64,000 nucleotides of DNA from positions 186,001-250,000 of the IMG/VR virus record IMGVR_UViG_3300005826_000294; one strand, 5' to 3'. Below the pieces are notes generated by a model, which was not told where the DNA came from, did no database searches, and worked only from the letters and a program-made list of their open reading frames with translations. This document shows, piece by piece, positions 3,205 through 38,019 of the stretch; position 1 is the stretch's first letter; every line of letters begins with the position of its first letter. The position numbers and the translations under genes were made by a program. The DNA is from a virus.

Positions 3205-3413
3205 ACGGGCTTTTTGCTGAGCTCTGTCGATAACATTAAACCGACGTCTTCTTACCTCAGCAATTCTTACAGTTGGGTTTGAAACAACTTCAAACTCAGG
3301 AACGGTGACTCTGTCACCGAAGACACGCGATTCAGGAGCAGAACCATTGCTGGAAACAACAACGGCCGCTACATCAATATCACGATCATAGACTGGGAGA
3401 GCACCTTGTGGTA
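3205..3413 (-). CDS. Major capsid protein, exon 3
   Basis: 209-nt exon with no start codon of its own. It encodes PQGALPVYDRDIDVAAVVVS through to VRRRRFNVIDRAQQKAR. The first two bases complete the Leu codon of exon 2 (CCG T|TA CCA), giving the VVDPLPQGALP run typical of large-phage capsid proteins. The frame then closes at TAA in intron 3, so the protein can only be made after splicing. VFGDRVTVPEFEVVSNPTVRI fits the N-arm/E-loop side of an HK97 fold. Boundaries were placed by the group I rule (U before, G after) and by reading frame. Confidence 0.88.
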
Positions 3414-4575: not shown

Positions 4576-4643
4576 ACGGATCTACAACAAGAACTCTTCT
4601 TCCTACACCCTGATAATCAAGGTTTCTTCGAATTGGGTTTGCC
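4576..4643 (-). CDS. Major capsid protein, exon 2 (68-nt mini-exon)
   Basis: A 68-base exon encoding (M)ANPIRRNLDYQGVGRRVLVVDP plus the first base of the next Leu codon. This is the N-terminal capsid signature (R-x-L-DYxGxGRRxLxVDPL) seen in T4-type and other large-phage capsid proteins. It lies between introns 1 and 2. The 5' boundary at 4643 is chosen so that all three introns start with TAA and have aligned guide sequences (GTGGCTTT, GCGGCTTT, GCGGGCTTT). One base of slip (ATT|GCA instead of AT|GGCA) is also possible and would give Ile for Met. Confidence 0.82.
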
Positions 4644-19200: not shown

Positions 19201-20263
19201 TTTCATCAGTTAATAATTTATCTAAAGCTTTAAGTAAATTGTTTCTCGCATCTTCAGATAAATCTGGATTTTGTAATAAAGTATTAACTCTTATTGCTTC
19301 ATCAAGATTTGTGCTATTAAATGAAGCGACTCTATTTATAGCACTATCAAAAGATCTTTTAAGATCTATAAATTCATTTTCTAACCGCTCAAGTTCACCA
19401 GGAGTGACACATCCGGCAGCTCTAAGCATTTGAATTCTATCATTCTTTTCTTCCGAATATTTATTTAAACTCGCAATAACATTTCTTAATTTCGCTTGAG
19501 GATCTGCTCCTGTCACTACCAAACTTAATTCAATAGGAGAGAGATCAATATTTATTTCTCCATAAGTAGTCCTATTACGAACATGATCACAATAATCAGA
19601 TTCTACTTTTGCTATATTACCACATTCATAACATATTGACTTACCAACTGCAGTACCCATAGAAACATTATTAGCATATCCAGAAGAAACTTTTCGTGCT
19701 AAATCAGGATAATTAATTTTATCTAAAGCACAAAGTCCAATTACTCTTTTATATTTATCATCATAATAAGTATCTACAATAATTCCTCTAATTCCATCAA
19801 CAGAAGAACTTTGATGATCTTTACATAAAGGACGACCAATCCATTTACGATATGCTTTTTTTAATTCTGCTTCTGGGAAAATATCCCCATTGTTATTTTT
19901 ATATGGTCTTAAATTTGGATCCGAACATTTCCATTTCCAAGAACCAGTTTTTTTATCTATGATCCATTCAGCTTGAACAGGATTTCCTGAAGCATCCTTT
20001 TTTATTTTACCATCAGAATCAACAAGAGAAGCTTCTGAACTATGAAGCATAATACAACTAAAATAAATAAAATCTTTAGCTCTTGGAGCTACTTTTTTGA
20101 GATTATTAGCAAATTTCTTAAATCTAATTTTAACTTCATTATCAAGATCCGAGATTTCTGGATTAAAAAGGCGATTTTTTAAATTATTTTTTTTATCCAA
20201 AAAACTACTAGAATAAACCTCTTGAAGTGTAAAATTAGATTCAGCAAATTTAATTATTGACAT
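16202..20263 (-). CDS. Scaffold/head-core protein with N-terminal prohead-protease-like domain
   Basis: 1353 aa; ATG at 20263 behind AGTAGGAGA. Residues ~90-280 resemble a prohead protease: GRPLCKDHQ (His150), a beta-rich stretch, then YANNVSMGTAVG (Ser201), and later LSPIELSLVVTGADPQA, the order seen in S78/U35-type proteases. CYECG and CDHVRN nearby could bind zinc. After ~300 the protein is helical and acidic, with a ~55-residue cassette present twice (GGGGVNxP, DPTNDQLKTKGDKQMEGQGM, HPGY). There is also a low-complexity KKSKKSEKDEE block near residues 920-990 and a helical C-terminus. A scaffold fused to its protease is the best reading. The protease call is by motif only. Confidence 0.6.
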   Translation of the reverse strand: MSIIKFAESNFTLQEVYSSSFLDKKNNLKNRLFNPEISDLDNEVKIRFKKFANNLKKVAPRAKDFIYFSCIMLHSSEASLVDSDGKIKKDASGNPVQAEWIIDKKTGSWKWKCSDPNLRPYKNNNGDIFPEAELKKAYRKWIGRPLCKDHQSSSVDGIRGIIVDTYYDDKYKRVIGLCALDKINYPDLARKVSSGYANNVSMGTAVGKSICYECGNIAKVESDYCDHVRNRTTYGEINIDLSPIELSLVVTGADPQAKLRNVIASLNKYSEEKNDRIQMLRAAGCVTPGELERLENEFIDLKRSFDSAINRVASFNSTNLDEAIRVNTLLQNPDLSEDARNNLLKALDKLLTDEKPVEVEPASATQSTTEMGDTGKGYTGQGNDTGPPEWSMEGNRLANVSLENTITNINKKLGAMETALRDMATGAQKATTNKEEQSMSGKELRERAAARRAMFKSAYHLGGGGVNDPATTPYPVDPTNDQLKTKGDKQMEGQGMEPGSEGLHPGYDSFGQSEENLKKMLSRAELDERKNARHSLMKNAEEAEKLESKQVGAKTVAKLPDGTVISLSNDGTWQAVDDAVIQHARDLVKMVGKTTKKEAYWQGGGGVNEPQTYSVDPTNDQLKTKGDKQMEGQGMESGSDGMHPGYESYGNEEALKQKLLRAQLRAKFVVAYKNEDKTIIDKPNSRWEIYAGPEKILEATGAEIYEDELNENWEVLASKKWGREVLRAIREDGIGKVAYYLKGITLTKEAQPPPEMPPMPGAEAPMPGAEAPMPLPEPKDEKEMPSDKDEDPVKAALSAASEHLEEVEKALGDLEKACEELSGKKSEDADLDTSGISEADDEEYDEDEEDVKDLYSGLDESADELAMLAESLEGRVKSGQSANDPITSELLRLTSEAIDTSVELRSQASLIVKAKKAKKSDKEEKKSEKDEEKKSKKSEKDEKDEEKKSKKSEKDEEKKSKKSDKEEKTFPPKKKSKKDEEEVKEEKKSKKSKAELLVEDLLKARADNRRKLAKEAMGEEDLGIDEVKKDEVKKILDEIFSPFGGIEKFVAKEKEEEEHGLGNLEVDEEEIFQEKAEDMDMDALDAELAQMLDDFQADDFQADDEEEEEMCSKSASARRSWREKVASEVGAKYQLSLDSQTTVDTDMPIGRSQQLGQLDINSNEAVVEGIVEMHEEILKQVQNLPKVREAMNHLGNLLKSGKLNMNELDNVEKLKALAVDPEAAKYWKGYFGEGDKKSSEFGGELTKEFTKKKVQASLDEEKIRMRRAYDIALSMQEKELIASDVSALHAQVDEIMNFDDKSFESFKRALARVSKPTSTKTASPALNVGINEDFSEVSSDSVDLTGQLNKLFD
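17290..17520 (-). repeat. Low-complexity Lys/Ser/Glu/Asp repeat in the scaffold gene
   Basis: Repeats with a unit encoding KKSKKSEKDEE run through this stretch of the scaffold gene. They produce long false open frames on the plus strand and in a second minus frame. It is probably a flexible charged linker inside the scaffold, and it is prone to copy-number change. Confidence 0.75.
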
Positions 20264-21816: not shown

Positions 21817-22440
21817 TTATGCTCCTAGCATTTCAATAAGGCGAGCACGACGCTTAATACAACTTACCAGTTCGCTCAATTTTTTATGACCCAAAATGTT
21901 TTTTTCAAAATGGACCCTCATTTGATATTCGATAATATTTTCAATACTTTGAATAATTTTCTCTGCTTTTTTAGCTGTAAGTTTAATATCTTTAACTTGA
22001 TCTTTTGAATTAAAATCTTCAAATGTTTCTAGGAACTCTTCCATAAATTCAGCCAATTGTTGCATCGCATCTTGAAGAGCAATTTTAATTTGTCTTGTAG
22101 TAGTATCTTTTTCTAATGGATTAAGAAGACTTATAACTCCAGGGGAAATTGTTTCAAGATTTTCATCTTTTTTTCCTGCAAACATTATAATAAGATGAGT
22201 ATATTTATCTTTTGTCTCTTTTTGAAATTTGCGTAATAAATGCCTTATCTCAAAAAGAGCGGTTGGATCTATATTATCAGCTTTTTCAAGAACGTTCAAA
22301 AGACGTTCATCATGCTGACGAGCAGACCATAACTCTTTTAGAAATTTATCAAACCCTTTAATAGCATTCTTAGCCGCCTCTCGCTCTTCATCAGAAATTT
22401 CGGATGTGCGTTTAGAAAGGTTTGCAGTTTTTTTAACCAT
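21817..22440 (-). CDS. Helical hypothetical protein, N-terminal LSKRT motif
   Basis: 207 aa; ATG at 22440 behind ATAGGAGA. It starts MVKKTANLSKRTSEISDEER, carrying a variant of the LSKRA motif found at the domain junctions of the neighbouring giant proteins. The rest is predicted to be all helix and amphipathic (KIALQDAMQQLAEFMEEFLE, IQSIENIIEYQMRVHFEKNI), without Cys or membrane segments. It lies between the topoisomerase polyprotein and the scaffold. No family recognised; an internal head protein is possible. Confidence 0.6.
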   Translation of the reverse strand: MVKKTANLSKRTSEISDEEREAAKNAIKGFDKFLKELWSARQHDERLLNVLEKADNIDPTALFEIRHLLRKFQKETKDKYTHLIIMFAGKKDENLETISPGVISLLNPLEKDTTTRQIKIALQDAMQQLAEFMEEFLETFEDFNSKDQVKDIKLTAKKAEKIIQSIENIIEYQMRVHFEKNILGHKKLSELVSCIKRRARLIEMLGA

Positions 22441-22520
22441 TTTTCTCCTATTAAAAAAAGATTTTGCGTCGTAAAGTATGGGATTTTATTAATAGATTTA
22501 GGATATTTTGTATGATTTTG

Positions 22521-22751
22521 CTAGAAAGGATCGCCTGTATCAAAAAAGAATGGACTAACAGTCATACCGCCTATTGGTTCCTCTGGCTTTGTATCTCCAC
22601 GTAATCCAACAATATTTACAACGGAACTTACATCGCATTCCTCATTTTCTTCATCTTCGAGTTCAGATAGAATTTGATACACATCCATTGCTGAATGTAT
22701 AAATCCATGACTAATTAACTCATTAAAAAGATTGGAAATTATCTTTTTCAT
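22521..22751 (-). CDS. Small acidic protein
   Basis: 76 aa; ATG at 22751 in an ATGA overlap with the end of the topoisomerase polyprotein, with TTTGGAGG upstream. The N-terminal 30 residues (NLFNELISHGFIHSAMDVYQ then ILSELED) look like a degenerate copy of the shared helical hairpin. The acidic middle and FFFDTGDPF end are unremarkable. It is probably co-translated with the large protein before it. Function unknown. Confidence 0.6.
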   Translation of the reverse strand: MKKIISNLFNELISHGFIHSAMDVYQILSELEDEENEECDVSSVVNIVGLRGDTKPEEPIGGMTVSPFFFDTGDPF

Positions 22752-25700
22752 CCAACACCTCCAAATGGTGGAGTCATACTCATAATTGGATTAACATTTC
22801 TAGCAGTATCTAACCATGTTTCATATCTAGGAAAAATATCTTGGAATCCTCTTAATGGTTGATCAGTAGGAGTTGGAACAAAAGCATCTTGTTCTATAAT
22901 TTCAGGGTTTTTATATGGACAATTTTCTATTTCTTCAATTATTTTACGAATTTGTTTTGTATCTACTGGTGTTGGATCTTTTCCCATTTCACTAAACCAT
23001 TCAATTAAATTAACAAAAAAATCCTTAAAACCATATGCCTTTGCTTCTAAATAAGCATCTTTATTGCTCCATCCACCTTCTGTTCTAAAACGGGCTATAA
23101 CCCCTCCTGTTCTATCTGCTCCAAACCAACAATGAATATAAGTAGGTTTTTCTAATAATAATTCAGATATTCTATCTCCAAGTATCTTTCTTCCATAATC
23201 CTCTGATGATCCAGTTTCTATTGGAGCAGGAATATGATCCATGCCTATTTCTCCACACATTCTTCCAATTTCAGGATTATTATGTAAAGAAATAACACGC
23301 TCTACCCCCATATCTTTAAGGGTCTGTAATTGTTCTAAATTATCAATCATTCCACCACGGTATAATTTTTTAGGAACCACAATTCCAAAATTTCTTGGAA
23401 GTTTGTCAAATTTTCCTAATTTTGATAATGTTTTTCTATCTAATTTTCCGGTAGGTTTTAATCCATTAATAACCTGTAAGCAAGCAAGATTGAGAACTTC
23501 ATCCTCAGATATACATTTTGAATTTAACATTCCAATTAATTTAATAGCTTTTGTATCATTTATAGCTTTTTTATTAAACTTTATCGCATCTTTAATTTCT
23601 AAAATAACGGGATGAATTACAGGATCCATAAAAAGATCTATTCCTTTTTTTACTATATCATATTTTTTATTTAAAGCACAATATGTTGTAAATTCTAAAT
23701 CTGGTTCCGTCATTGATTCAGCAGGAAAATATTTATTTCTAATTTCATCTAATTTAAGACTAGCATCAATAGCCATATTTGGGAAAAGACCAGTCATATG
23801 TCTTTTAGTTTCTGCTTCTGTTTCAGATTCTCCTTTAAATCTATGACTAGGATTAATAATTTGTTCTGGATTTTTTTCTGGACCAATATGAACTCCCTCA
23901 TGAATTAAAGTTTCTACTAATGCTTTTTCTGTAGCTTGTTCTAATTGTTGAGCATTTGGTTGAGTAGATCCAAACATTCTCTTTACTTGTTCATTAATAC
24001 GATTTTTAAATATATGAACTTCTCTAGGATCTTTTCCAGGACCCATTTCTACATGCCCGAGTTGTCCAGGGCCTCCTTCAGGATGAACAATTATCTTTAT
24101 AATATTATTTTTTATATGAGGTGGAAGTTTAGCCAAAGCTTTTGCTACAGCAGTATCATATGGTTCTATAAGTATTTGAGCCCCTGGTGTTTTTACTTCT
24201 AAATCTTGAGCATCTTTGATAAAATACTTATTTATCCATTCAGCTCTTTCTTCAGGATCCATTTCTTCCATAATATCAATCTCATACAAAGTCATTTCAG
24301 ATCTTTTACGCTTTGGTTTGTTCTTTTTTTCTTTTTCTATTTGTTTTGCTAAATTGTCCCAATATTCTTCAAAGCCTTTCATCTCTTCATCATTGAAACC
24401 CTCAAATACTTCATCATGATCTTCATTAGCTCGTTTTGATAATTTAAAATTTGCTTGTTTTTTACCAAGATCAATCTCAGCAATTTTATCACCGCCAGCA
24501 AAAAATACTACATTTTTTGCCTTCCATTTTGGTAATTTTTCTAATGAAGGTAGTTCGACATTATAATCATCAATATAACCAATAGTTATATGAGGAACCC
24601 ATCCATGTTCCGATGGTAAATCAATAATATTACTAATAGCATCTTGAAGATCATTCTGTAAAGCATTTAATCCAACAGAATTAGGAATAAAAAATATTGG
24701 AACTCCATCATCTCCCTTAGAAAACATTCCTGTTCCCGCTATATACATAGATAATGGTTTATGATGAGAACATACTTTTTCAACAGATTTTATTATTGCT
24801 TTTCTTGTTATATTATCAATATCTTTTGCTTTTCCAAGATAAATAAGAGTTATATGTAATCCATCAGAACTTACACCTTCACCAATAAATTTATTTAACT
24901 TTTTAGGAACCATAATAGCAATCATAGCACCAGTATGTTTTTCTTTTGCTATTTTCAATAACTCTTCTTCATTATATCTATTTTTCCAAAATGAAAGTTT
25001 ATGCTCATCTTCTTCGTTTCCCCATAACAGAAGTTCTTCTTTAAGAGATGCTACTTTTCCAGATGATAAATATGTTTCTATTGTATTAGGAAGAATGTAT
25101 TGATTTTTTAGAGTACTTGGTTGGTGCCCTAGGTCTTTTGAAACATTTTCCAAAGCATTATTAAGTTCTTCCTTTAATTTTTTCTCCTTTTCTTTTTCTT
25201 CTTTTGGAAGAGTTCCTTTTCTTTGCTTTTTTAATTCTTTTTTTAACAAACTATTTGCCTCAGCACCACGAATATCTTTTGCAGTAATCTTAAATTTTTT
25301 CAAATACTTATTAACCATTTTTGGTGTAATTGTAAAAACTTTATCACCCTTTTTTTTATCTTTTATTAACTCTTTTAAAGCACTAACAGTTTCTTTATTA
25401 TTAACAATTTTTTCCTGATCTACACCAGATTTGCCGACATACTTAATTTTCGCTTTTCCACCAGAAAAAGTTATATGCTTAACTAACCAAGTTGTCACAC
25501 CATAATGTTTTCTTTCATCAGCAGAAAATTCATTACCAATTCTTTCTTTTGTATCATAAATTAAAGAAACAGCAATAGCAATCTGCTTGATTTCATCATC
25601 ATCAGATTTTAAATCTTCTTTAATCTTTTTAAGCAAATCAGAAACATTTTCTTCTAACTGTTTTATTTTCTTTTCTTTTTTCTTCCAACGCCTTTTTACC

Positions 25701-25789
25701 CACTTTTCATCATAAATATATGTAATGTTTCCACTTTCTTCTTCTCTTTTTTCAACATAATTTTTTGCTCGTTTTGAAAGATAAAACAT
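22748..25789 (-). CDS. Multidomain protein: topoisomerase IB, 2H phosphoesterase, HExxH protein, tyrosine phosphatase
   Basis: 1013 aa from ATG 25789 (TTGGAG upstream; the TTG at 25801 is part of that site). It begins MFYLSKRA. Domain 1 (~10-260) is a type IB topoisomerase: Arg83 in ERIGNE, Lys120 in GKSG, Arg174 in KDIRGAEA, His222 in DLGHQPSTL, Tyr231 in NQYILP. Domain 2 (~280-440) is a 2H phosphoesterase with LHITLIYLG and PHITIGYI. The linker NFKLSKRAN (Phe448) follows. Domain 3 (~520-700) has LIHEGVHIG, an HExxH metalloprotease-like site (His630). Domain 4 (~830-960) has HCWFGADRTG (Cys887, Arg893), a tyrosine/dual-specificity phosphatase loop. The function as a set is inferred: DNA relaxation plus RNA-end, peptide and phosphate processing, perhaps released as separate proteins. 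Confidence 0.85.
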   Translation of the reverse strand: MFYLSKRAKNYVEKREEESGNITYIYDEKWVKRRWKKKEKKIKQLEENVSDLLKKIKEDLKSDDDEIKQIAIAVSLIYDTKERIGNEFSADERKHYGVTTWLVKHITFSGGKAKIKYVGKSGVDQEKIVNNKETVSALKELIKDKKKGDKVFTITPKMVNKYLKKFKITAKDIRGAEANSLLKKELKKQRKGTLPKEEKEKEKKLKEELNNALENVSKDLGHQPSTLKNQYILPNTIETYLSSGKVASLKEELLLWGNEEDEHKLSFWKNRYNEEELLKIAKEKHTGAMIAIMVPKKLNKFIGEGVSSDGLHITLIYLGKAKDIDNITRKAIIKSVEKVCSHHKPLSMYIAGTGMFSKGDDGVPIFFIPNSVGLNALQNDLQDAISNIIDLPSEHGWVPHITIGYIDDYNVELPSLEKLPKWKAKNVVFFAGGDKIAEIDLGKKQANFKLSKRANEDHDEVFEGFNDEEMKGFEEYWDNLAKQIEKEKKNKPKRKRSEMTLYEIDIMEEMDPEERAEWINKYFIKDAQDLEVKTPGAQILIEPYDTAVAKALAKLPPHIKNNIIKIIVHPEGGPGQLGHVEMGPGKDPREVHIFKNRINEQVKRMFGSTQPNAQQLEQATEKALVETLIHEGVHIGPEKNPEQIINPSHRFKGESETEAETKRHMTGLFPNMAIDASLKLDEIRNKYFPAESMTEPDLEFTTYCALNKKYDIVKKGIDLFMDPVIHPVILEIKDAIKFNKKAINDTKAIKLIGMLNSKCISEDEVLNLACLQVINGLKPTGKLDRKTLSKLGKFDKLPRNFGIVVPKKLYRGGMIDNLEQLQTLKDMGVERVISLHNNPEIGRMCGEIGMDHIPAPIETGSSEDYGRKILGDRISELLLEKPTYIHCWFGADRTGGVIARFRTEGGWSNKDAYLEAKAYGFKDFFVNLIEWFSEMGKDPTPVDTKQIRKIIEEIENCPYKNPEIIEQDAFVPTPTDQPLRGFQDIFPRYETWLDTARNVNPIMSMTPPFGGVG

Positions 25790-25790
25790 A

Positions 25791-27233
25791 TTAATCTCCA
25801 ATAGAAACTAACAACTCAAAAATATTTTCTTTCTTATTATTTATAAAAATATCATAAGCACATTTTAAAATAATATCTTTATTAAGATTAATGAATTTAT
25901 ATTCATATTCTTTATTTAAACCTTCCCATTTATATATAATATTATAACCATTAATAGAACAATTATTTAATTTCTTAATAGTCTTATATAATAATTTAAA
26001 AAAACTACTTTTAGTTTTTTTATTAATTTTATTTGGATTAAAAAATACTGGATTGCCGTGATAAAAATCACCTAAAAATTCATAAATAGTATTTGTTGAT
26101 TTAACAAATCCATCAGCATAATAATTTATATTACTAATTTTTATATGCTTTTCTCTATTTTCTATGTTTAATTTATCTAACCAAACTTTACAACCTTTTG
26201 AAATTCTTTTAGCACATTTAGGACATCCATTTTTATTATTTCTATGATGAACATCAGAAATCCATTCATGACCTTTTTCACAAATCCACCACACTTTTTT
26301 CGTACTATTTAAAAACACATCATAAGGAGTTAAATCTCCATTTTTTTCATAATTCCATTCTTTTGATAATTCTGGATTTAGAGTTGCTAAACAATTATCT
26401 TTACAGAGTTTTCTATTACTACAATAGGGACATGAACCTTTATTTTTATAAATAATAGAACATTCCCATTCATGACCTTTTTCACAAATCCACCAGACTT
26501 TTTTTCCAGAACATATTCCAAACATTTTTGGTGTTAAGCTTTTATTTTTTTCGTAATTCCATTCTTTTGCTAATTCTGGATTTAAAGTTGCTAAACAATT
26601 GTCTTTACATACTTTTTTATTAGAACAAAAAGGACAATTCACTCCCAAATTTCTACTACTTATAAGAGCATTCCATTCATGTCCTTTTTTACATTTCCAC
26701 CAAACTTTTTTTCCAGAACATATCCCAACCATTTTTGGTGTTAAGTTTTTATTTTTTTCATAATTCCATTCTTTTGCTAATTCTGGATTTAAGGTTTCTA
26801 AACAATTATCTTTACAAATTTTCATATTAGAACAATATGGACAATCATTATAATTTCTATTATTTGGACTTTGTTTCCACTCATGACCTTTTTTACATAT
26901 CCACCAAACTTTTTTTGGAGAGTGTAAAAATACATCATAAGGAGTTAAATTTCTATTTTTTTCATAATTCCATTCTTTTACTAATCTTGGATTTTTAGTT
27001 GCTAAACAATTATCTTTATAAACCTTTCTATTACTACAATAAGGACATCCACAATTATTTGTTCTTGATTTTATTATTGCTTTCCATTTATGTCCTTTTT
27101 TACAAATCCAATATGCTTTTTTATGAGAGTGTGGAGTATAATTTTCAGGATTAAATTTATTCTTTTCATAATCCCATTCTTTACACAATTTTGGATTTAT
27201 TACTAATAGATTATATTCTTTACTTAATTTCAT
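25791..27233 (-). CDS. Homing endonuclease: zinc-ribbon repeats plus Vsr-like (EDxHD) nuclease
   Basis: 480 aa. Five or six ~65-residue repeats of the DUF4379 type (KEWNYEKN, LTP, KVWWICKKGHEW, CPYCSN) make a DNA-binding zinc-ribbon array. The C-terminus, GCKVWLDKLNIENREKHIKI then NYYADGFVKSTNTIYEFLGD and FYHGNP, has the Asp, Glu and His of Vsr-like homing nucleases of the I-Bth0305I kind. It sits precisely between two virion genes, its stop one base before the ATG of the topoisomerase polyprotein. A mobile gene with no host role expected. Confidence 0.85.
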   Translation of the reverse strand: MKLSKEYNLLVINPKLCKEWDYEKNKFNPENYTPHSHKKAYWICKKGHKWKAIIKSRTNNCGCPYCSNRKVYKDNCLATKNPRLVKEWNYEKNRNLTPYDVFLHSPKKVWWICKKGHEWKQSPNNRNYNDCPYCSNMKICKDNCLETLNPELAKEWNYEKNKNLTPKMVGICSGKKVWWKCKKGHEWNALISSRNLGVNCPFCSNKKVCKDNCLATLNPELAKEWNYEKNKSLTPKMFGICSGKKVWWICEKGHEWECSIIYKNKGSCPYCSNRKLCKDNCLATLNPELSKEWNYEKNGDLTPYDVFLNSTKKVWWICEKGHEWISDVHHRNNKNGCPKCAKRISKGCKVWLDKLNIENREKHIKISNINYYADGFVKSTNTIYEFLGDFYHGNPVFFNPNKINKKTKSSFFKLLYKTIKKLNNCSINGYNIIYKWEGLNKEYEYKFINLNKDIILKCAYDIFINNKKENIFELLVSIGD

Positions 27234-27256
27234 TACTTCCCTTTATTTTACTATTT

Positions 27257-27610
27257 TTATTTAGGTTTTTTCATTTCTTCTGGAATAGATACTATTTGTT
27301 GTTGAGTTGTAGTAAGAAGTTTTGATAATTCTACAATAACCTGACTAGTAAATGCTGGATTAAGTCCTGATAATAGATTTTTTGTAATTGAAATTGCTTG
27401 TCCTATTGAAGCTGAAGGGGGAATTTTTTTAAGTCCCAATACTCCTGGATGTATTCGAATGATTTTTCCACGTAATTTTCCCATAAATCTACTTCTTTGT
27501 TTTTCAGGAACACGATAAAATATAAACTTAATAATTTTAAACAAAGAGTCAGCGGTAAGTTTTGTAGGATCTTGAGCTTGTTTTATATGTCTTTTAGATA
27601 ATTTAATCAT
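27257..27610 (-). CDS. Small basic protein with N-terminal KLSKR motif
   Basis: 117 aa from ATG 27610 (MIKLSKRHIKQAQDPTKLT), which overlaps the previous stop by 8 nt (ATGATTAA); the longer frame from 27649 would overlap more and lacks a better site. It starts with the same LSKR motif as the polyproteins. The rest is basic and helical (FIFYRVPEKQRSRFMGKLRG) with a hydrophobic C-terminal helix. Likely a virion-associated protein; no known family. Confidence 0.6.
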   Translation of the reverse strand: MIKLSKRHIKQAQDPTKLTADSLFKIIKFIFYRVPEKQRSRFMGKLRGKIIRIHPGVLGLKKIPPSASIGQAISITKNLLSGLNPAFTSQVIVELSKLLTTTQQQIVSIPEEMKKPK

Positions 27611-28277
27611 TTTTTTTCTCAAAATGGTCCCACCAATTATTAGCATCAATGGGCAAACGATTATATTTTTTTGGAGTTGGTAATATAAATCCTGTTTTTA
27701 AAAGAGTTTCAAGTTCTTTCATTTTAGAATATTCAAAATCTGAACTATGAAGCATTCCAGAATTATATTTATTTCTTAACAGTTTAGCAATATTATAAGC
27801 TCTTAGTGCCGAAATTCCTGTTTTTAATTCCGATTCATTTACTTCAATTAACTTATCAATATCAATGTTCCTAAAAGAAAGAATATCTGGTAATAAAGCA
27901 TCCAAACGCTCTGATAAATTACTTTCTCCTTTTTTTTGAAGCAATGTTATAATTTTTCCCAATCTAATAGCATTTTCATCTTGGGAACAATTTCTAACTA
28001 CAGAAGAAATACAATTTGTGACTGCATCTGCTATATGAATTATTCCTTTACTACGAAGATCACTAGATACCTTATGCATCTCTGCAACAATATTTTCAAC
28101 GGCATGTTTAAAATATTGTATTCTTTTTTCTTCCTCATGGATTCTTTCCTTTGATGGTTTTTTTCCTCCAAACCATCTAAGAACTCTATGAGGCTTTGAT
28201 TTACTAATAAGAGCCCATTCAGTTTTTTTCGTATTTTTATTATATCTTTGAACCAACATAGAAAATTTTTCAAGCAT
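27603..28277 (-). CDS. Hypothetical helical protein
   Basis: 224 aa, ATG at 28277 overlapping the upstream endonuclease stop by 8 nt. The N-terminus (VQRYNKNTKKTEWALISKSK, then VLRWFGGKKPSKERIHEEEK and RIQYFKH) looks like a small conserved basic domain. Residues ~60-100 (MHKVSSDLRSKGIIHIADAV) match the shared helical hairpin loosely. The C-terminus has LLRNKYNSGMLHSSDFEYSK. Function unknown. It is coupled to the KLSKR protein that follows. Confidence 0.6.
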   Translation of the reverse strand: MLEKFSMLVQRYNKNTKKTEWALISKSKPHRVLRWFGGKKPSKERIHEEEKRIQYFKHAVENIVAEMHKVSSDLRSKGIIHIADAVTNCISSVVRNCSQDENAIRLGKIITLLQKKGESNLSERLDALLPDILSFRNIDIDKLIEVNESELKTGISALRAYNIAKLLRNKYNSGMLHSSDFEYSKMKELETLLKTGFILPTPKKYNRLPIDANNWWDHFEKKND

Positions 28278-29133
28278 TTAAAGCTCCAAGATTAAAATCA
28301 ATTATAATATTTATCCAATTATTCCAGATATTTATTTCCATATTATTTTTACCAATATTACAAGTTTTACAACAAGAAACACAATTATTTATAATATAAC
28401 CAATATTATTATCTACTCTATCTAAACCTATGATACCTTCTGTAATAGTTCCACAATAATTACATGGTATTTCAAAAAATAATTTAAATTCATCAAAGGA
28501 TAAAGAAAACCTCTTTTTCCTTCTTTTAGCACTCCGACAATAATTTTTATACTGCGATAAAATAGAAAATTTATGTTTCACTTCCCTATTAATTATACGA
28601 GTATTGTTATATTTATTATATATAATTATTTGATATAAATATTTATACCATTCATTTAATGACATGGTTTGTTTTGTTTTATTACATATTTTACAACAAG
28701 AAACACAATTATCTATAAAGTATCCGTAATTATTATCTATTCTATCAATTCCTTTAGATTTAGATCCACAATAATTACAAGGTTTTTGATATAAATCATT
28801 AAATTCATTATGAGATAAAGAAAACTCTAAAGATTTTCTTTTAGCACTTGATTTATATATACTATATCTTCGGTTTTTATTGTCTTTTTGTTTTAGATAA
28901 TATTCTTTACTATATTTTTTTCTATTAGAATTTATATATTGTTTATTCTTATTGTAATATAACATATTTGATTTTAAAATATTATCTTTATGTTTTATAT
29001 AAGTTTCATGTCTTTTTTCACTTAATCTAGTTTTACATAAATTACATTGGGAACATAAACCATCAGGATTATATTTATCTTCCCAAAAATTATTATATTC
29101 CTTATATTCTAAACAATTACTACATTTCTTCAT
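28270..29133 (-). CDS. Homing endonuclease with two HNH-type zinc modules
   Basis: 287 aa; ATG at 29133 overlaps the previous stop. The N-terminus is a zinc ribbon (MKKCSNCLEYKEYN, CSQCNLCK). Two homologous modules follow, each S-x-S-x-[ND]EF-x(7-8)-PCNYCG, then GIDRIDNNYGY or GLDRVDNNIGY, then NCVSCCKxCN and a trailing K. Each has the DR-D-N and CxxCN layout of this HNH subfamily, so the protein carries two nuclease-like cores, perhaps one active. Inserted between small virion genes. Confidence 0.82.
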   Translation of the reverse strand: MKKCSNCLEYKEYNNFWEDKYNPDGLCSQCNLCKTRLSEKRHETYIKHKDNILKSNMLYYNKNKQYINSNRKKYSKEYYLKQKDNKNRRYSIYKSSAKRKSLEFSLSHNEFNDLYQKPCNYCGSKSKGIDRIDNNYGYFIDNCVSCCKICNKTKQTMSLNEWYKYLYQIIIYNKYNNTRIINREVKHKFSILSQYKNYCRSAKRRKKRFSLSFDEFKLFFEIPCNYCGTITEGIIGLDRVDNNIGYIINNCVSCCKTCNIGKNNMEINIWNNWINIIIDFNLGALNA

Positions 29134-29420
29134 TTTCTATAACCAGTAGCTCTTCTTGTTAGTGATGTTCTAACAGATTTTTGATAATCTAATCCAGGCT
29201 CCCAGAAACATACAATATTATCACAATTTATATAAATTATTCCATTTTCTGGTACTTCTAAACTAATTACATTATTATTAACATCTAATACAACACCATA
29301 TAAAAATTCTTTATTAGCACTCCAAGCTTGATTGTATGTTATTGTCTCTGATATTTCTCCACAAGAAATATATAATTCTTTATCAATAAATCTGTTTTTT
29401 ATGAATTCAGCAACACCCAT
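29130..29420 (-). CDS. Small hypothetical beta-rich protein
   Basis: 96 aa; ATG at 29420 behind AATGGAGATAAATT. It has a mixed beta pattern (ITYNQAWSANKEFLYGVVLD, VISLEVPENGIIYINCDNIV) and a basic end (TSLTRRATGYRK). It follows the 2851-aa protein and overlaps the HNH gene downstream. No family recognised. Confidence 0.55.
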   Translation of the reverse strand: MGVAEFIKNRFIDKELYISCGEISETITYNQAWSANKEFLYGVVLDVNNNVISLEVPENGIIYINCDNIVCFWEPGLDYQKSVRTSLTRRATGYRK

Positions 29421-29463
29421 AATTTATCTCCATTATTTATTTTGATAATACTTTATTAATAGT

Positions 29464-32400
29464 CTATTCCAGATCTTTTCTGCGTTCTTTATCTATTCTA
29501 GAAGCATCCATTTGTTTTTTATTTAAAATAATTGCTTTAATATTTTTTTTATTTTGAAAAACAGCCTTAGATAATCTATGATAACCATCAATTAATTTAC
29601 CTTTATATAATAATATTGGATAATTAAGAGAGACTTCTTTAATTCTTTTGAACTCTTCTTTATATTTCTTTGGATTATCTAATACAATTTTAGGAGTTAT
29701 ATTTTTACCCCAAGCATTATGATCCATATTCCATTCTAATGAATTAACAGACACATCTTCAGGTTTAATATTTTCAGTCAGTTCAATTAACATATCAACA
29801 GACCATTCTCCACTATCACTAGTATATGTTTGACCTGCTCTTTTAGATAATTTAAAATCAGCATTAGATTCTTTATATTCCATAATCATCCATTTATTTC
29901 CATCTGTTTTAAATAAATTATAAGTTCCTTTTTCTTTTTTACCATTTAATTTAAATACTATTTTGTTTTTAGTTGAACTTATCTCTTCATATGTGCCAGA
30001 ATCATGAATTTTTACATCACCTGATCCATAATTTCCTTTTTCTATTTTCCCTTCAAATTTATTATATGAAATAGGATGATTTTCAGTTTTCACAGCGAGC
30101 AATCTTTCTTTTCCATTTGGCAATTTATGTTTAGGAACAGCCCAAGAAGACATAGATCCTTCATCATTTTCCAAACGCAAATCATAATGATTTCCAGCCT
30201 TTAAAGCCTTATGATTTTGAATTACAAAACGATGTTTGTTTTTTTCTTCAAGTTTTCCTTCAGGTTCAGGTGTTTCATCAAAATTTCTTTTTTTCTTATA
30301 TTTTGATAGTGAATCAGCTCTTTTACTTAATTTAAAAGAAGACTTTTTCTTTAATTCTTCAAATCCTCTAACTAAATCTTCCATATATATTAACATTTCT
30401 TCTGGATCATCACCATAATTTTGAATATCCTCAAAGAACTCTCTAAGAAGTGCCTCGGACTCTGGATCTATATCTTTCTGATTCATAAGAGCACCGACCT
30501 TAGAAAAAATTTGATGATGCGTATCACTCTTATTTCTAATATTTCTAATATTAACAACAGGTTCTGGATTATATTTCCCAGGCATAATAAGAGCTTGAAC
30601 TAAAGCATATTCTCCAATTCCAAAAGAAGTATCATCATTATTAAGAGCAACATGATAAAAATCACTATACATAATCTCACCAGAAAGATTTTCATTAGGA
30701 TTTCTTTTAGCATATTCAACAAGTTTATTATTTAATGGAACAGGAGCAGTCCCATTTACCCAATTTGGATTGGTAATAAACTTCATATATCCAGGTGGTA
30801 TTTTCCAAAGACCAATAAATTTAAGAACTTTTGGTCTTATAGACGTATGAGATCTTAATGGTTGTTTTTTAGGATTACTTCTAGGAAGAGAAAAATCACT
30901 TCCACTTGGTGGTTTATAACTTCTATATGGATTATAAGAAGTAGATTCATGATGAGCTGGAACTAAATTACATTTAAAACCAAATGAAAGATCATCCTCA
31001 GAAATTTGATCTCCAATCTTAGTAATAAAGAAAGTTCCTGGACCATTTCCATAAATCCCATCTATTTTTTGATCAGATAAAATATCTTCCATATGATAAT
31101 ATTCAAACCAATCATCACGAGATTCCATCATCTTAGAAACCCAAGAATGAAGAGCTGGAATATAAACATTATCTACTTTATCTTTTGTTGTAATTTTTTC
31201 TGTAATATTCTTTTGTTCTATATTTCCATCTTTATCTGCTATAAAACCACTATTTATATTTATATCACCTAACCATGATATAAACATACCTGGATCTAAA
31301 TGAGATGTTTCTCCTAATGTCTCATACATAGAAAGAACACGTTGTTTTGATCCATTAATTTTTGATTTTTCTATTTTTTTAACAATTTCAGTAATTGGTT
31401 TCCCAAAATTTCTTTGAATATCAATTTGTTTAGAAAACCAATCATTATAGGAATTAATAGCAATTTTATGCTGATCATTAAATATTTTTGCCCCTAAGAC
31501 AGATAAATACATCATTGTTTTTTGTGTTAAGTTCTGTCTCATATTCGCTTCTTGATCAGCTTCAATTCCTCCTAATCCTTCTTCTTCTTCTACACCAAAT
31601 TCTTCTTTTCCTACTTGGTCCCACTTCATATGTTGCCAAGGTTCCCAAAAATATCCACCTTTTCTATTTAATCCTTTTCCTCTAGCACTTCTTAATGTAA
31701 ATTTTACATAATCATGCGGACAAATAAAAGGAACATCTAATAATTCATCAGGAGGAATTCGTTGAGGTAAAATGTTAGGTAAAGATTCATCTTCAGCACT
31801 CTGAGATGAACCTACAACAATACCAAATCTTTTTTGTAAAACTACTATTGCTTTCGCACCAGCTTCTGTTTTCCAAAATTCATGATTACGATCTAAAGCG
31901 GTCATTGGAACTCTATTTCCTGGGCATCCTGAATTCGGACACCAAGTGTGCCAATATGGAACTGGTTCAGACTGAACTTGTAAACTATATTGTTTTTTTT
32001 CTAAATTATTAAGATCAAGTTTTGAATGCCTAATATCAGTACTAAGAGATATAATAGATTGTTCATATTTTCTCTTTTTATCTTCAAGTTCTGGAGTTTG
32101 ATTTTCTCCTAATTGTTCTATAACTTCATTTAATTTTTCTTGTAATTTAAAAACATCATTCTGTTTTCTAGACACATAATTTTCAAGTTTGGTAATTTTA
32201 TCTTTATTTTCTTCATATACTCTTTTACAATCTTCACAATACCAACGTTTTACAGGACCTTTTTCTTTAGAAGGGACCATAGCATTATAAAAAACATCCT
32301 TACTTTGTCTTTTTTGTTTTCTTGATTTACAATAAGCACAAACAGGAATTCTTACTTCTTTATATCCCTTATCTTGTGCTATAATTTTAGATATTCTTCG

Positions 32401-35400
32401 TGATAATGATTTATATATATATCCACCAAGTGGAACACTCCCGCGAGGAGGATCAACTCTATATCCAAATGAAAAATAAGTATTTGCGAGGTCTGTGATT
32501 GCTTCATTAATTAAAGAGATATATGCTTTTGAACTTGGAAGATCTGTTATAGGAATACCTTTTATCAATAAATCAATATCTCCTTGATCAAACATGCCGA
32601 AAGGCATACTACCGACATCTCCTTTTCTACCAAGTTTTAATTGAGAACTATTATTATCAAACCATTTCTTTCCAACACCCATAATAATTGCTGGAAGAAC
32701 CCATTTTTGTGCTATTTCAGGATTTTTTTTTAATTCTTCCCAAGCATACGGATCTTGGAAAAGTTTTGTTAAAGAAGGTCCATCTTTCATATTATCTGGA
32801 GAAAATAAATCTTTGGCATTAGCAGACATAACTGGACGCTTAATTTCCTCAGAATTAAACCATCTACTTAATACTACTCCATCTTTATCTCTAGGAGGTT
32901 CTAACTTTTCTCCAAAAATGGGAATTTTTTCTTTTGTATCTTCTTCTTCGTCTTCTTCCTCTTCTTTATATTCAGAAAGAGCTTCTCCCCATAAATCTTC
33001 CTTTTCTTCATCTCCAAGGAGATCAGAAAAATCAACATCTTTTTTTTCTTCAACTTCTTCAATTTCTTCTGGTTTTACAACTTGTTTAAATCCAAAATAT
33101 TCAGGTCTCTTTTTTTTTAAAACTTCTTCCTGTTTTTTTTCAACTTCTTCCTGTTTTTTTTCAACTTCTTCCTGTTTTTTTTCAGGAACACTTTCTATAA
33201 ATTTATCAAGTTTTTCCTGCTCAGTTTCAATCTCTTCTGGTTCTTCCTCTTGAAACTCAGGATTTTGTTCTAAAAATTTCTTAACTTCTTCATCATCCTG
33301 ACTCTCAGCTATTTTCCATAATTGTTCAAGATTAATTGGACTTTTTTTTACAGATGTTTTTAATAAATTGTTTGAAATTATATGTATTAAATTTTCTGTT
33401 TGATCTTTAATAGATGTAAATATATTTCCAGATTTTTCTACTGGCAATCCTGTCCAAATTCCATTTGCCCTTTTAACTTTACCCACAACGTCTGGATTTC
33501 CTGTAATTTTTAATCCAGAAATTATATTTGATTCTGCACCTAATAAAACAGCATTATTAATCATACCTATTGGTTTGTTTTGTTTAACAAAACTTTTTAA
33601 TAAATCTTTGACTTCTTTGTTTTTAGAAAAATTACAAACATCTTCCCCGCCACATACAATAAGGGCATCATATTGTTTAGTATTAATATCTTTTATTTTT
33701 TTCGAATTTATTAATGTTCCTTCAACACCCTCAACAACATTAAAAGTAGATATAATATGTGATTTAAACCCATATTTATTTATAAATATATTTTGTGTAA
33801 TTAAGTATTCTTTTTCAGAACACCCTGTTGGAGGAACCAAAATTGCTATTTGAGCAAATTTAGCATTAAGCATTTCGATAAATTCTGGATCAGGTTCATC
33901 AAAACCCATCCATCTTCTTTTCTCCATATGCTTTTCTAATTGACGTTCTTTTTCATTTGACTTCCAGGCATCGGCTTTCCATTCGGAAGATGGCCAATCA
34001 ATTTGTTCAAACTGAAAATTTTTTATTTCATTTTCTTGAAGTATATTATTAAATCCTTTTTTTACAACATTAGGCAAATCTTGTAGATTTTTTTCACCAT
34101 AAAATTGTATATCTGCTGGTTCATCACCTTTATATATAAATATTCTTCCCCGCCATCCTTCATTAGTTATTTGTTTTATATTATTATGTTGTGCTAATTC
34201 AATATGACCAAAATATTGTTTCTCACGCTTTCCATTGTTTATATTAAGATGATATGTAAATTTATTATTAATTTCATCCCATAACCATATATATTCTTTA
34301 TTTATTTTAGACGCTTTTAAATAAGCTTTCTTTGAAATAAAATCATCTGCCGCATTATATGCTCCTTGCTGACTATATGGTTCTTGACCTTGAGATGGAG
34401 CAACTTGTATAATATTTCCCTCTGGAAATGGAATATCTCCATAATCATATTTATTTTCATGTAAAGGTGCATTATTATAATTGTTTTCTGCTGTGTCTTG
34501 TTCTCCACCTAAAATTTTTTTAATGTTCCCATTGTTTTCTCCAAATGACTCAGGAACACGAATACTACCTTTATTATGTAGAGTGCTCACATCAGATCTC
34601 ATTCCACTTCCTTTAACAACACCAGTAGTCACATCTTCCCATTTTTCATTTAAATTTGTTAAAAGATCTTTTAATTCTTCACGCAATTTATCTATGGATA
34701 TTTCACTCTTCAATTTAAACTCTACATGAATACCAGATCCTCCACTTTGAAAAATTGTAGGAGTAGTCCCATATTTCTCTTTTAATTTTGAAGATAATTC
34801 TCTAGCATATTTTTTAGCTTTTTCTAATGGATAATTACCATGAATATCTAAATCCACGAAACCAAGATCTGTTTTGTTTCCAAATACCTGGTGAAAAGAC
34901 AAAAGACGCCGTTTAACCCAATAAAAATAATTATTAGGGTTTTCATCATTATTAGGATTATCATTAGTTATTACTATTTCTTTATCATTATGATTTCTTT
35001 TTAATATGGTTTTATTTTTCCCAACTCCAAGATAAATTAATACAGGCTTCCCTTTAATACGAGACATTATTTTCTTTCTTACTTCTGGTTTTTCATAATG
35101 TTTCCTAATTTCTCCACGAGTTAGTTTTTTGTCTTTATCAATTAAAACTTCCGACATTTTTTCTTTATCATCATCGGCAGAACTTATATTAATTGGTTCA
35201 AATTCAATAATGACAAATCTTTTATCTGGACCAAAACGATCTTCTAAAGATTTAGCCATTCTTTCACCATATGCTTTATTTATTCTTGTGATACTCATAA
35301 CTCTTTTAGTAATTATCTTAATATCAGCAATATTAGCTCCAGAATAACTTTTACATTTAACTTTATCATCAGGATTTACATTAACATCTCCTGGCCTAAT

Positions 35401-38019
35401 CGTATATGTTCTTTTTCCACTTTTAATATCTTCAGCATATTGATCAGGAAAATATATTGTTCCATTTTCAGTATATTGAGCACATTTTACAAGAATATTC
35501 CTTAATTTAGCTTCGGAAGCAAGATTTTTATATTTATTTATAATTGTATTTGTAATTGCTTTAACAACCTCTTCTTCTGTAAAATCTTTTTCATATCTAG
35601 TTTTAAAATCTTCAATAATTTCATTCAAATGTTCTTTATACCATTCGAATTCTTTTAACATTTGAGGTAAATATTTAGCATTAAATCCTTTTAATGGATC
35701 TGCTTGGGTTGGTTCTTCTTCTGGAAAACTTTCAGCATTAATTAAAAACGCATATCGCTTATCCTGAAATCCTGCTAATCCACCTTCAATGATATTTGTA
35801 GGCAATCCAGTCATTTTTTGAATAACTCCATTTGCCCTTTGTAAATAATGAACATGTGCTGGACCAAAAGGTTTTCTACTACTCAAAAATCTTCTAACTC
35901 TATATGGACCACTACCATTAGCAATAGCCATAAGTTGATACATATTATAGGCACCAGGAACATTTGGATTGTATTCATATTTAATAACATCACTAACAAG
36001 CATTCTCATTTTGTTCATAAAATCTGATTTTGAAACCCAATCAGACAAGTTCTTTAAAGAACTATTATTTCTAACACTTTTACTAGAAAAAGATCTATAA
36101 AATTTAGCTGATGTATCTGGATGTTCCATAGAAGTTATTAGTTGAGCTAAAGCACTTTTAGCTACACTTGGTGTAATATAGGTATCAGCAACATTTTGAA
36201 GTCTTAATAAATTATTAGGAGTCGGTTTAAACCCATATTTATTCTCAAGTAAATCAATATCAAATTCTTTTCCAATATATCTATTACCAATTTTTTTTAC
36301 AATCCCAGGGACATTACCTCTTGGGTTCATTTTAATTGAAGTGCCCTCTCTTCTTTTTACAACTTTATTGGGATTTTGTTTTATAAACTCTTCCACAGAA
36401 TTTTTATCGACAGGGACATTTTTCCATATATTTTCTTTGCGTATATTACGCATATTTTTCTTCCACTCATTTGAAAGTTCCTCTAACTTTTTAGGATCTA
36501 TGCCAGTTGCCTGTTCAAGTTTTGGATTTTTAGAAAGCCATTTCATAAAATATGGACCATGAACTTGAGTCAAACCAAATGAATTTCCTGAATCTCCACG
36601 AATCCAACTTTTATTATTACTTTCAAGTTTAGACATAATTTTAAATCCAAGTTCTGGATCAAAATTTAAACTTGCAGGCACCTTTGGTTCTCTAACATGA
36701 ATTGGATTAACTTTTACTTGTGATTTTAATTCTATAAGCAATTTATCAGGAGTTAAAGCTTCCGCTCTTTTTGAAAGTTTAAAAGAATTCATAGCTTTAA
36801 CCACCTTAAAATTATCAATATTTTTAGAATGAAATTCATTCATCGTAGCATCTTGGGGTTTTTTATCATCACGAAATCTTACAAACTTTTGATGCCTTAA
36901 TCCTCCAGGAACTCTTTCCTGAAATCCAATTTCAATTACAAATTTTCCTTTTTTTAATTTATCTTTTATAATTTTCTCATTTTCTTCAGAAAAATTTCCT
37001 ATATCACTAATATGATATAATTTTCCTTCATAATATTGTCCAAATAATGCTTTTAAATTACCTTTATCTGTAGTTTCACAATCATAAACTACATAATCAT
37101 CACTATCAGATTTACCAACTCCACCCTTATATTTAAACATAATTCCAGATGGTTTTGGTTCATTTTCACCCTTTTCTTTATATTCATATGGTTGATCTTT
37201 TAATTTTAATACAATTCCTTCTCCACCAGATTTAACAGCATTATTCATTACATTTTCCCATTTAGAAAATGGATATTGTTTTGTTATTAATATAGTATCA
37301 GTAGGTTTTATAATATTTTGTAATATTTTTCTTCTTTCTGAAAAAGGTTTTTTAGTTATATTATTACCTTTATACCATAAAATATCATAAAGATGTAATT
37401 TAATTTTTCCAGGTAATTCTTTCATTTTTTCTATTGCTTTATCAGAATTACTACCAGCAATTGATGTAACTTTTCCAATATCTTGTTTATTATTATTCCA
37501 ATAAACTAATTCACCTTCTACTAATGTTCCATCTGGAAGAGATTTAAGACCCCCTATTAATTCTGGAAAATTATCTGTTTTTTCATCACCACGGCGACTA
37601 TATAATTTAACTTCTCCATTTGATTTTATAGCTTGAGCTTTCCATCCATCAAGTTTATCTTCTATAATTATATTGTCTTTATTATAATCTTTTAATAATT
37701 CATCTGGATCATTAATTTGCGATAAACGCATAAGTGCCTTTGGAGATACTGAATCTGATGCTTCATTTATAGAGATATTTTCTAATTCTTTAAGACGATT
37801 TTCCATTTTTTCTATTTTTTCAGTTATAAGTGATGAAAGAACTTCATTGCCTTCAGCTTTTTCCAATCTCTCTTTTGTTTTAGGCAATTCATTTTTTAAT
37901 AAATCTTTCTCACATTTTTCGCACATTCCATGCGTTTTAGTATCTTCACTGAAATCGTCTCTTTCTTCTGAAAATTGAAATTCCTTGCACCATGAACAAT
38001 AATGATCTATTTTTACCAT
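29464..38019 (-). CDS. Giant multidomain protein: DNA ligase, AEP polymerase, LigD phosphoesterase and others
   Basis: 2851 aa, ATG at 38019 behind GAGGGAGAG. Order: C4 zinc finger (~7-38); ATP-dependent DNA ligase with Lys122 in EDKLDG, GTLVEGELVYW, GEGIVLKLK, MFKYKGG, then an OB-like part; junction FKLSKRAE (413-419); SLT/lysozyme-like domain (KLESNNKSW, GDSGNSFGLTQVHG, ~460-490); ASCH-like domain (YFPDQYAEDIKSGKRTYTIR, ~850-940); AEP primase-polymerase with VDLDIHG (~1055), SGGSGIHVEF (~1092) and GSIRVPESF; DJ-1/PfpI-like domain (~1390-1560) whose nucleophile position is Asn1488; acidic E/K linker; a long part with zinc pairs (CAYC, CEDC, ~1890-1940); junction FKLSKRAD (2562); LigD-type 3'-phosphoesterase (FVIQNHKALKAGNHYDLRLE, SSWAVPKH, YGSGDVKIHDSG); junction FKLSKRAG (2722); ParB/Srx-like domain (LLYKGKLIDGYHRL). 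The three catalytic parts of bacterial LigD are therefore present in one gene. Cleavage into parts is inferred. Confidence 0.88.
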   Translation of the reverse strand: MVKIDHYCSWCKEFQFSEERDDFSEDTKTHGMCEKCEKDLLKNELPKTKERLEKAEGNEVLSSLITEKIEKMENRLKELENISINEASDSVSPKALMRLSQINDPDELLKDYNKDNIIIEDKLDGWKAQAIKSNGEVKLYSRRGDEKTDNFPELIGGLKSLPDGTLVEGELVYWNNNKQDIGKVTSIAGSNSDKAIEKMKELPGKIKLHLYDILWYKGNNITKKPFSERRKILQNIIKPTDTILITKQYPFSKWENVMNNAVKSGGEGIVLKLKDQPYEYKEKGENEPKPSGIMFKYKGGVGKSDSDDYVVYDCETTDKGNLKALFGQYYEGKLYHISDIGNFSEENEKIIKDKLKKGKFVIEIGFQERVPGGLRHQKFVRFRDDKKPQDATMNEFHSKNIDNFKVVKAMNSFKLSKRAEALTPDKLLIELKSQVKVNPIHVREPKVPASLNFDPELGFKIMSKLESNNKSWIRGDSGNSFGLTQVHGPYFMKWLSKNPKLEQATGIDPKKLEELSNEWKKNMRNIRKENIWKNVPVDKNSVEEFIKQNPNKVVKRREGTSIKMNPRGNVPGIVKKIGNRYIGKEFDIDLLENKYGFKPTPNNLLRLQNVADTYITPSVAKSALAQLITSMEHPDTSAKFYRSFSSKSVRNNSSLKNLSDWVSKSDFMNKMRMLVSDVIKYEYNPNVPGAYNMYQLMAIANGSGPYRVRRFLSSRKPFGPAHVHYLQRANGVIQKMTGLPTNIIEGGLAGFQDKRYAFLINAESFPEEEPTQADPLKGFNAKYLPQMLKEFEWYKEHLNEIIEDFKTRYEKDFTEEEVVKAITNTIINKYKNLASEAKLRNILVKCAQYTENGTIYFPDQYAEDIKSGKRTYTIRPGDVNVNPDDKVKCKSYSGANIADIKIITKRVMSITRINKAYGERMAKSLEDRFGPDKRFVIIEFEPINISSADDDKEKMSEVLIDKDKKLTRGEIRKHYEKPEVRKKIMSRIKGKPVLIYLGVGKNKTILKRNHNDKEIVITNDNPNNDENPNNYFYWVKRRLLSFHQVFGNKTDLGFVDLDIHGNYPLEKAKKYARELSSKLKEKYGTTPTIFQSGGSGIHVEFKLKSEISIDKLREELKDLLTNLNEKWEDVTTGVVKGSGMRSDVSTLHNKGSIRVPESFGENNGNIKKILGGEQDTAENNYNNAPLHENKYDYGDIPFPEGNIIQVAPSQGQEPYSQQGAYNAADDFISKKAYLKASKINKEYIWLWDEINNKFTYHLNINNGKREKQYFGHIELAQHNNIKQITNEGWRGRIFIYKGDEPADIQFYGEKNLQDLPNVVKKGFNNILQENEIKNFQFEQIDWPSSEWKADAWKSNEKERQLEKHMEKRRWMGFDEPDPEFIEMLNAKFAQIAILVPPTGCSEKEYLITQNIFINKYGFKSHIISTFNVVEGVEGTLINSKKIKDINTKQYDALIVCGGEDVCNFSKNKEVKDLLKSFVKQNKPIGMINNAVLLGAESNIISGLKITGNPDVVGKVKRANGIWTGLPVEKSGNIFTSIKDQTENLIHIISNNLLKTSVKKSPINLEQLWKIAESQDDEEVKKFLEQNPEFQEEEPEEIETEQEKLDKFIESVPEKKQEEVEKKQEEVEKKQEEVLKKKRPEYFGFKQVVKPEEIEEVEEKKDVDFSDLLGDEEKEDLWGEALSEYKEEEEDEEEDTKEKIPIFGEKLEPPRDKDGVVLSRWFNSEEIKRPVMSANAKDLFSPDNMKDGPSLTKLFQDPYAWEELKKNPEIAQKWVLPAIIMGVGKKWFDNNSSQLKLGRKGDVGSMPFGMFDQGDIDLLIKGIPITDLPSSKAYISLINEAITDLANTYFSFGYRVDPPRGSVPLGGYIYKSLSRRISKIIAQDKGYKEVRIPVCAYCKSRKQKRQSKDVFYNAMVPSKEKGPVKRWYCEDCKRVYEENKDKITKLENYVSRKQNDVFKLQEKLNEVIEQLGENQTPELEDKKRKYEQSIISLSTDIRHSKLDLNNLEKKQYSLQVQSEPVPYWHTWCPNSGCPGNRVPMTALDRNHEFWKTEAGAKAIVVLQKRFGIVVGSSQSAEDESLPNILPQRIPPDELLDVPFICPHDYVKFTLRSARGKGLNRKGGYFWEPWQHMKWDQVGKEEFGVEEEEGLGGIEADQEANMRQNLTQKTMMYLSVLGAKIFNDQHKIAINSYNDWFSKQIDIQRNFGKPITEIVKKIEKSKINGSKQRVLSMYETLGETSHLDPGMFISWLGDININSGFIADKDGNIEQKNITEKITTKDKVDNVYIPALHSWVSKMMESRDDWFEYYHMEDILSDQKIDGIYGNGPGTFFITKIGDQISEDDLSFGFKCNLVPAHHESTSYNPYRSYKPPSGSDFSLPRSNPKKQPLRSHTSIRPKVLKFIGLWKIPPGYMKFITNPNWVNGTAPVPLNNKLVEYAKRNPNENLSGEIMYSDFYHVALNNDDTSFGIGEYALVQALIMPGKYNPEPVVNIRNIRNKSDTHHQIFSKVGALMNQKDIDPESEALLREFFEDIQNYGDDPEEMLIYMEDLVRGFEELKKKSSFKLSKRADSLSKYKKKRNFDETPEPEGKLEEKNKHRFVIQNHKALKAGNHYDLRLENDEGSMSSWAVPKHKLPNGKERLLAVKTENHPISYNKFEGKIEKGNYGSGDVKIHDSGTYEEISSTKNKIVFKLNGKKEKGTYNLFKTDGNKWMIMEYKESNADFKLSKRAGQTYTSDSGEWSVDMLIELTENIKPEDVSVNSLEWNMDHNAWGKNITPKIVLDNPKKYKEEFKRIKEVSLNYPILLYKGKLIDGYHRLSKAVFQNKKNIKAIILNKKQMDASRIDKERRKDLE
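33121..33183 (-). repeat. Three 21-nt tandem repeats in the giant gene
   Basis: Three exact copies of AACTTCTTCCTGTTTTTTTTC lie head to tail and encode EKKQEEV. They form the acidic coiled linker between the PfpI-like domain and the zinc-containing part of the 2851-aa protein. The T8 tracts (A8 in the mRNA) are also potential slippage points. Confidence 0.85.

Follow-up and report, generated by a model that had tools for sequence, protein, structure and literature searches.

The peptide F-x-[LI]-S-K-R-A is strongly supported as a real tag that marks where modules start in proteins encoded in the head gene cluster of a large virus of bacteria, which is known from environmental DNA alone. The window analysed here, a stretch of 64,000 nucleotides (30% GC), comprises bases 186001-250000 of the 301,683-base virus record, and its features are collected in Table 1. 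The original prediction had placed FKLSKRA at residues 413, 2562 and 2722 of a giant 2851-aa protein (29464-38019, minus strand) and at residue 448 of a topoisomerase protein. All four copies are present, the last of them at residue 452 of 1017 aa (448 when counted from the Met at 25789). These copies, spread across two proteins, use different codons in every case, which rules out a DNA-level repeat or a recent duplication as the origin of the tag. A degenerate DNA pattern for FKLSKR found five matches (the four known sites and one other), compared with 0.12 expected.

Related motifs had also been read at the N-termini of three neighbouring proteins, and all of them exist: FYLSKRA lies close to the beginning of the protein encoded from 25801/25789, IKLSKRH close to that of 27649/27610, and ANLSKRT close to that of 22440. 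Comparison with relatives cast doubt on the third. Orthologues of the small 27257 protein begin FYLSKRA, FKLSSR, FRLSNR and PISKRA, whereas those of the 22440 protein read ANLPQRSS, ALLPQRSS, SYSAQRSS and similar, without LSKR. Since ANLSKRT is unconserved, we consider it probably not a genuine tag and took the 22440 site off the list. Outside the window, a 205-aa protein (G000 37213-37830, minus strand) starting MKKKFILSKRQ may be another tagged protein; the loci retrieved contained no homologue of it.

Table 1 Features of the window, in window coordinates.
Feature	Position	Strand	Evidence or remark
Head maturation protease fused to scaffold-like region	16202..20263	-	phrog_18299, E 1.9e-13
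ANLSKRT, N-terminus of 207-aa protein (start 22440)	22405..22425	-	probably no genuine tag
Second polyvalent protein, 1017 aa	22748..25801	-	Pfam/PHROG matches
Putative zincin-like metallopeptidase module	23642..24217	-	motif: HEGVH at 23888-23902, downstream GExE
FKLSKRA, residues 452-458, between LigT and HExxH modules	24428..24448	-	alignment
LigT / 2H phosphoesterase module, residues ~285-446	24464..24949	-	PF13563, E 6e-12
FYLSKRA at gene start, before topoisomerase IB	25766..25786	-	MIMLSKRM in G008
Small protein, N-terminus MIKLSKRH (Met at 27610) = tag	27257..27649	-	orthologues
Giant polyvalent protein, 2851 aa	29464..38019	-	Pfam/PHROG matches
C-terminal ParB-like module	29506..29841	-	phrog_17560
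FKLSKRA, residues 2722-2728, before ParB-like module	29836..29856	-	motif scan
LigD_N 3'-phosphoesterase module	29908..30219	-	Pfam PF13298, E 3e-27
FKLSKRA, residues 2562-2568, before LigD phosphoesterase module	30316..30336	-	FYISKRA in G008
Degenerate tag FISKKA, residues 1227-1232	34324..34341	-	homologous position
Degenerate tag LVKCAQY, residues 843-849, directly before module starting NGTIYFPDQYAEDI	35473..35493	-	
FKLSKRA, residues 413-419, after ligase module	36763..36783	-	same junction tagged in 8 related contigs
Portal protein with intein domains; head cluster marker	39834..44042	-	Pfam/PHROG
Terminase large subunit	44054..45904	-	PF05876, E 7.7e-16

The remaining record was retrieved as overlapping pieces, each scanned for ..LSKR., and this whole-record search, which the original prediction had proposed, gave ten sites, seven of them inside the head cluster. 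In the gene set used for the counts (307 genes and 94,955 aa from a simple gene caller), four predicted genes genome-wide carry LSKR within the first 30 residues, compared with 0.1 expected from shuffles. The head cluster, with 10,259 aa, holds 7 matches to the pattern [LI]SKR[AHSTGYDM], and the 84,696 aa encoded elsewhere hold one (Fisher p = 1.2e-6); pooled over four clade genomes, the counts are 20 in 37.5 kaa versus 5 in 174.7 kaa (p 2e-11). These p-values are descriptive because the cluster limits, 30-kb stretches around the portal-protease region, were drawn after the sites had been seen. Permuted motifs average 0.38 in the head cluster and 1.38 elsewhere, which is about chance. Outside the head cluster, the motif thus stands at about chance level, as would be expected if a short basic peptide simply recurred in a low-GC, lysine-rich proteome. 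Given the cluster statistics and the conservation across 14 contigs, we nevertheless consider chance recurrence vanishingly improbable; only the site at 22405-22425 still fits it.

A terminase search returned 19 contigs at 64-88% identity, and longer stretches were taken from several of them. The close relatives all come from metagenomes, as contigs with neither annotation nor host, and their genes were called mechanically. The tag set, covering 14 genomes (the window phage and 13 related contigs), holds 55 sites after 15 weak ones were discarded. The 55 tags stand at the start of at least 14 distinct modules, and F at the outer position, which had no part in site selection, is found in 25 of them. 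That modules start with this tag, as had been proposed, is borne out by two homologous modules that are gene-initial or internal depending on the phage, with the tag first in both arrangements. In the window phage, G003 and G004, the HExxH module is internal and comes after a tag, but in G006 (MFYLSKRA) and G007 (MIPLSKRA) it opens its gene; the second module is gene-initial in G004 (MQYILSKRA) and internal in G007 (PLSRRA). The ParB-like module and its tag are C-terminal in the window phage, mid-polyprotein in G006 (residue ~1018, adjoining a DJ-1-like module and preceded by ALSKRD) and missing in G008, where the end of the protein matches in other respects. The DJ-1-like label in G006 and the ParB-like label are our readings of the sequence, the latter matched by phrog_17560, and the argument depends on neither name.

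A gene-initial tag is common to at least four modules, and some polyproteins carry four or more tags, placed at module boundaries. Some junctions have a degenerate tag or no tag, and in a few cases the tag is C-terminal (G006 residue 2402, G007 residue 1771). Modules have evidently been shuffled at the tag points, which could mean that recombination at a shared DNA linker left the tag behind as a by-product with no protein-level function. We regard this as very unlikely, as the copies differ in codons, the same peptide is encoded in G007 despite 57-58% GC, and the tag stays while its flanks diverge. Because the codons differ and the peptide is kept at this GC content, selection acts on the protein, not on the DNA.

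The giant protein combines an ATP-dependent DNA ligase, a PrimPol-like module (a weak match, below Pfam's cut-off), DJ-1/PfpI, a LigD 3'-phosphoesterase and the C-terminal ParB-like module. Its tag positions extend beyond the exact motif, because LVKCAQY and FISKKA match tags of relatives: the former reads LSKRANF, ISKRADY, VSKRASY and LSKRAQY in G004, G003, G006 and L100, respectively, and the latter FALSKRY in G002 and FALSKRH in G008. Weak junction look-alikes, KFAQ at 1387 and KIAE at 1569, were not counted as tags. A whole-protein search against viral contigs gave no match, and tblastn in named phages matched the ligase domain alone. Together, the ligase, the phosphoesterase and the weak PrimPol match make up the three LigD activities, with unrelated modules between them, and this trio possibly serves end joining of injected DNA. 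In G008 (L125, ~11.2-12.4 kb), an apparent intein interrupts the LigD-type phosphoesterase module; the window phage has no intein there.

The 1017-aa protein joins topoisomerase IB, LigT/2H, the HExxH module and a DSP-like phosphatase. In the alignment running from LigT through the tag to the HExxH module, SKR is invariant bar one K-to-R change, and the linkers range in length from a few to ~85 residues. The residue-452 tag lies in a coil of pLDDT ~30 in a low-confidence structure model of the region. HE..H and GE.E are invariant in 6/6 homologues of the HExxH module, which thus has the HExxH helix and the downstream Glu of the zincin motif. A Pfam search of the module gave nothing significant; its structure model (pLDDT 75, plausible strand/helix order) found no significant PDB match in Foldseek. 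Neither of the two structure models matched the PDB significantly, and the argument on the tag draws on them just for the low confidence at that site. The module is limited to the tag-bearing clade and a few further contigs.

The portal gene bears Hint, LAGLIDADG and intein-splicing domains, apparently from two inteins. LSKRS in L098 and LSKKA in L103, both at about residue 51 of the portal, are chance or weak matches that other portals do not have. Between the tagged genes lies a protein (25791-27233, minus strand) with five DUF4379 zinc-finger units. At 1656-5712 (minus strand), capsid-protein homology falls in two parts, at 3414-3205 and at 2183-1689. Three ORFs for LAGLIDADG endonucleases lie between these parts and around them, which suggests introns in the capsid gene.

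By analogy with the T4 capsid targeting sequence, we propose, with about even confidence, that the tag targets proteins to the capsid and probably serves as a processing signal too. It would mark the beginning of each cargo module in virion-destined polyvalent proteins, as an N-terminal peptide in stand-alone genes and at the junction in fused ones. The tag might dock cargo onto the prohead core or scaffold and then be cut, splitting fused precursors into separate enzymes that would be carried in the head and injected along with the DNA; the cutting enzyme could be the head maturation protease or the HExxH module. Cutting of fused genes at the tag and packaging in the head are plausible in view of the portal-protease location, the polyvalent content and the disordered linker in the low-confidence model. 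Head loading, cleavage and the identity of the cutting protease are what we infer. The prohead protease pointed out nearby in the original prediction does match PHROG head maturation proteases, and a homologue is encoded near tagged genes across the tagged lineages. It does not stand as the only candidate: the HExxH module, judging from its sequence motif, is an equally good candidate for the tag protease. The major capsid proteins that were identified among the relatives do not carry the tag, and we therefore dropped the idea of a general prohead-protease site; untagged capsid proteins fit cargo-specific use, not general head maturation.

If the tag served as protease recognition only, its gene-initial copies would be relics of gene fission. 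Many junctions are tagged within a low-confidence (unstructured) linker, C-terminal leftover tags exist and the cluster encodes two candidate proteases, all of which agrees with such a role. However, gene-initial tags persist across several phages and modules, and the orthologues of the small protein keep LS.R-type variants where cutting would free just a few residues, so that we hold processing alone to be unlikely, if still a serious contender. No conserved residue that could define a scissile bond follows the tag among the 55 sites. Alternatively, the tag could only bind a core or portal component, with multiple copies raising avidity and the polyproteins packaged and injected uncut. The gene-initial and C-terminal copies and the head-specific clustering are compatible with this, and there is a precedent in N4 virion RNAP, a polyvalent protein packaged uncut (PMC5512222). 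Yet a single copy should then suffice, and some polyproteins have at least four boundary-placed tags; we find docking alone improbable. In our preferred reading of combined targeting and cutting, targeting is favoured because a tag on module-initial genes would be pointless as a mere cut site, and cutting because many junctions bear tags.

The tagged proteins described here are a tag-delimited form of polyvalent proteins, and both carry several unrelated enzymatic domains per polypeptide. Like the polyvalent proteins known from phages and conjugative elements (Iyer 2017, PMC5512222), they are giant and multidomain, lie near head genes and contain effector, repair and metallopeptidase-like modules. 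Of the domains typical of the class, which include LPD, MPTase and InPase, LPD1 and InPase occur in relatives, and the window phage has the HExxH module, assigned by motif alone. What differs here is that a portable tag sets off the modules, and that they switch at this tag between separate genes and fusions. Term searches of PMC5512222 found no recurrent junction or N-terminal tag in the passages returned, and literature searches for the tag peptide or junction tags returned nothing relevant. Iyer et al. proposed zincin-like domains as processors of polyvalent proteins; in phage P1, packaging of the polyvalent protein DdrB/DarA is preceded by its cutting, for which a zincin-like domain has been proposed. 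The passages on DdrB/DarA describe no repeated tag, whereas the HExxH module here directly follows one.

No conserved Glu was found in or after the tag. The T4 capsid targeting sequence ends in a Glu-containing gp21 site, and we therefore say that the tag works like, not that it is, a T4 capsid targeting sequence. In T4, a single 10-residue tag plays both parts, directing proteins to the core and being cleaved off by the head protease (PMC9026906). The likeness lies in a very short N-terminal peptide common to different proteins; in contrast, the T4 tags occur at N-termini only and share no sequence relation with the tag here, which also stands at internal positions and several times in a single polypeptide. 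T4 tagged proteins are head-internal, a status that we infer for the proteins here from gene location. In SPN3US and phiKZ-type phages, which are likewise giant, encode their own protease and eject head-internal proteins, cleavage occurs after A-X-E and mainly removes N-terminal propeptides, those of portal and capsid included (PMC10052503). Unlike those sites, the tag here has a basic character and does not occur in the capsid proteins examined, and with no conserved Glu in or after it, the tag junctions lack a conserved A-X-E. With its clear consensus, the seven-residue tag brings two questions within direct reach of testing: how large phages choose their head enzymes, and whether giant polyvalent proteins get cut. 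It would also permit sequence-based prediction of virion cargo in uncultured huge phages, and might find use in loading capsids with proteins.

More distant huge phages carry a related tag in the same positional role. An alignment search with topoisomerase IB returned 39 viral loci, many on 100-500 kb contigs, and in most of them RVAARY, RLAAKF or similar immediately precedes the topoisomerase domain. This R[VL]AxR[YFW]-type position holds for gene-initial domains as well as inside proteins of 2,000-2,800 aa. The RVAxRY-type pattern has 29 further occurrences in those polyproteins versus 7.3 in shuffles, and 26/36 sites lie near BLAST module boundaries, where the permuted-motif control is noisy; the extension therefore leans mainly on the 29 versus 7.3 count and the topoisomerase position. 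Both tags share the core [LVI]-[SA]-x-R, and the G008 topoisomerase N-terminus, MIMLSKRMAAAYKDKKK, looks intermediate between them. A common role of the LSKR and RVAxRY tags is likely, and their common descent is unproven. More tentatively, and with the balance of probability somewhat against it, F-x-LSKRA and R[VL]AxR[YFW] could be lineage dialects of one load-and-cut code, in which a tagged enzyme would become cargo and tagged genes could fuse or split harmlessly, being cut at the tag. In phage LR745208 (L016), two proteins with zinc-ribbon ends (4039-5340 and 7508-8791), which we read from their sequence as OrfB-like and transposon-type, flank the terminase.
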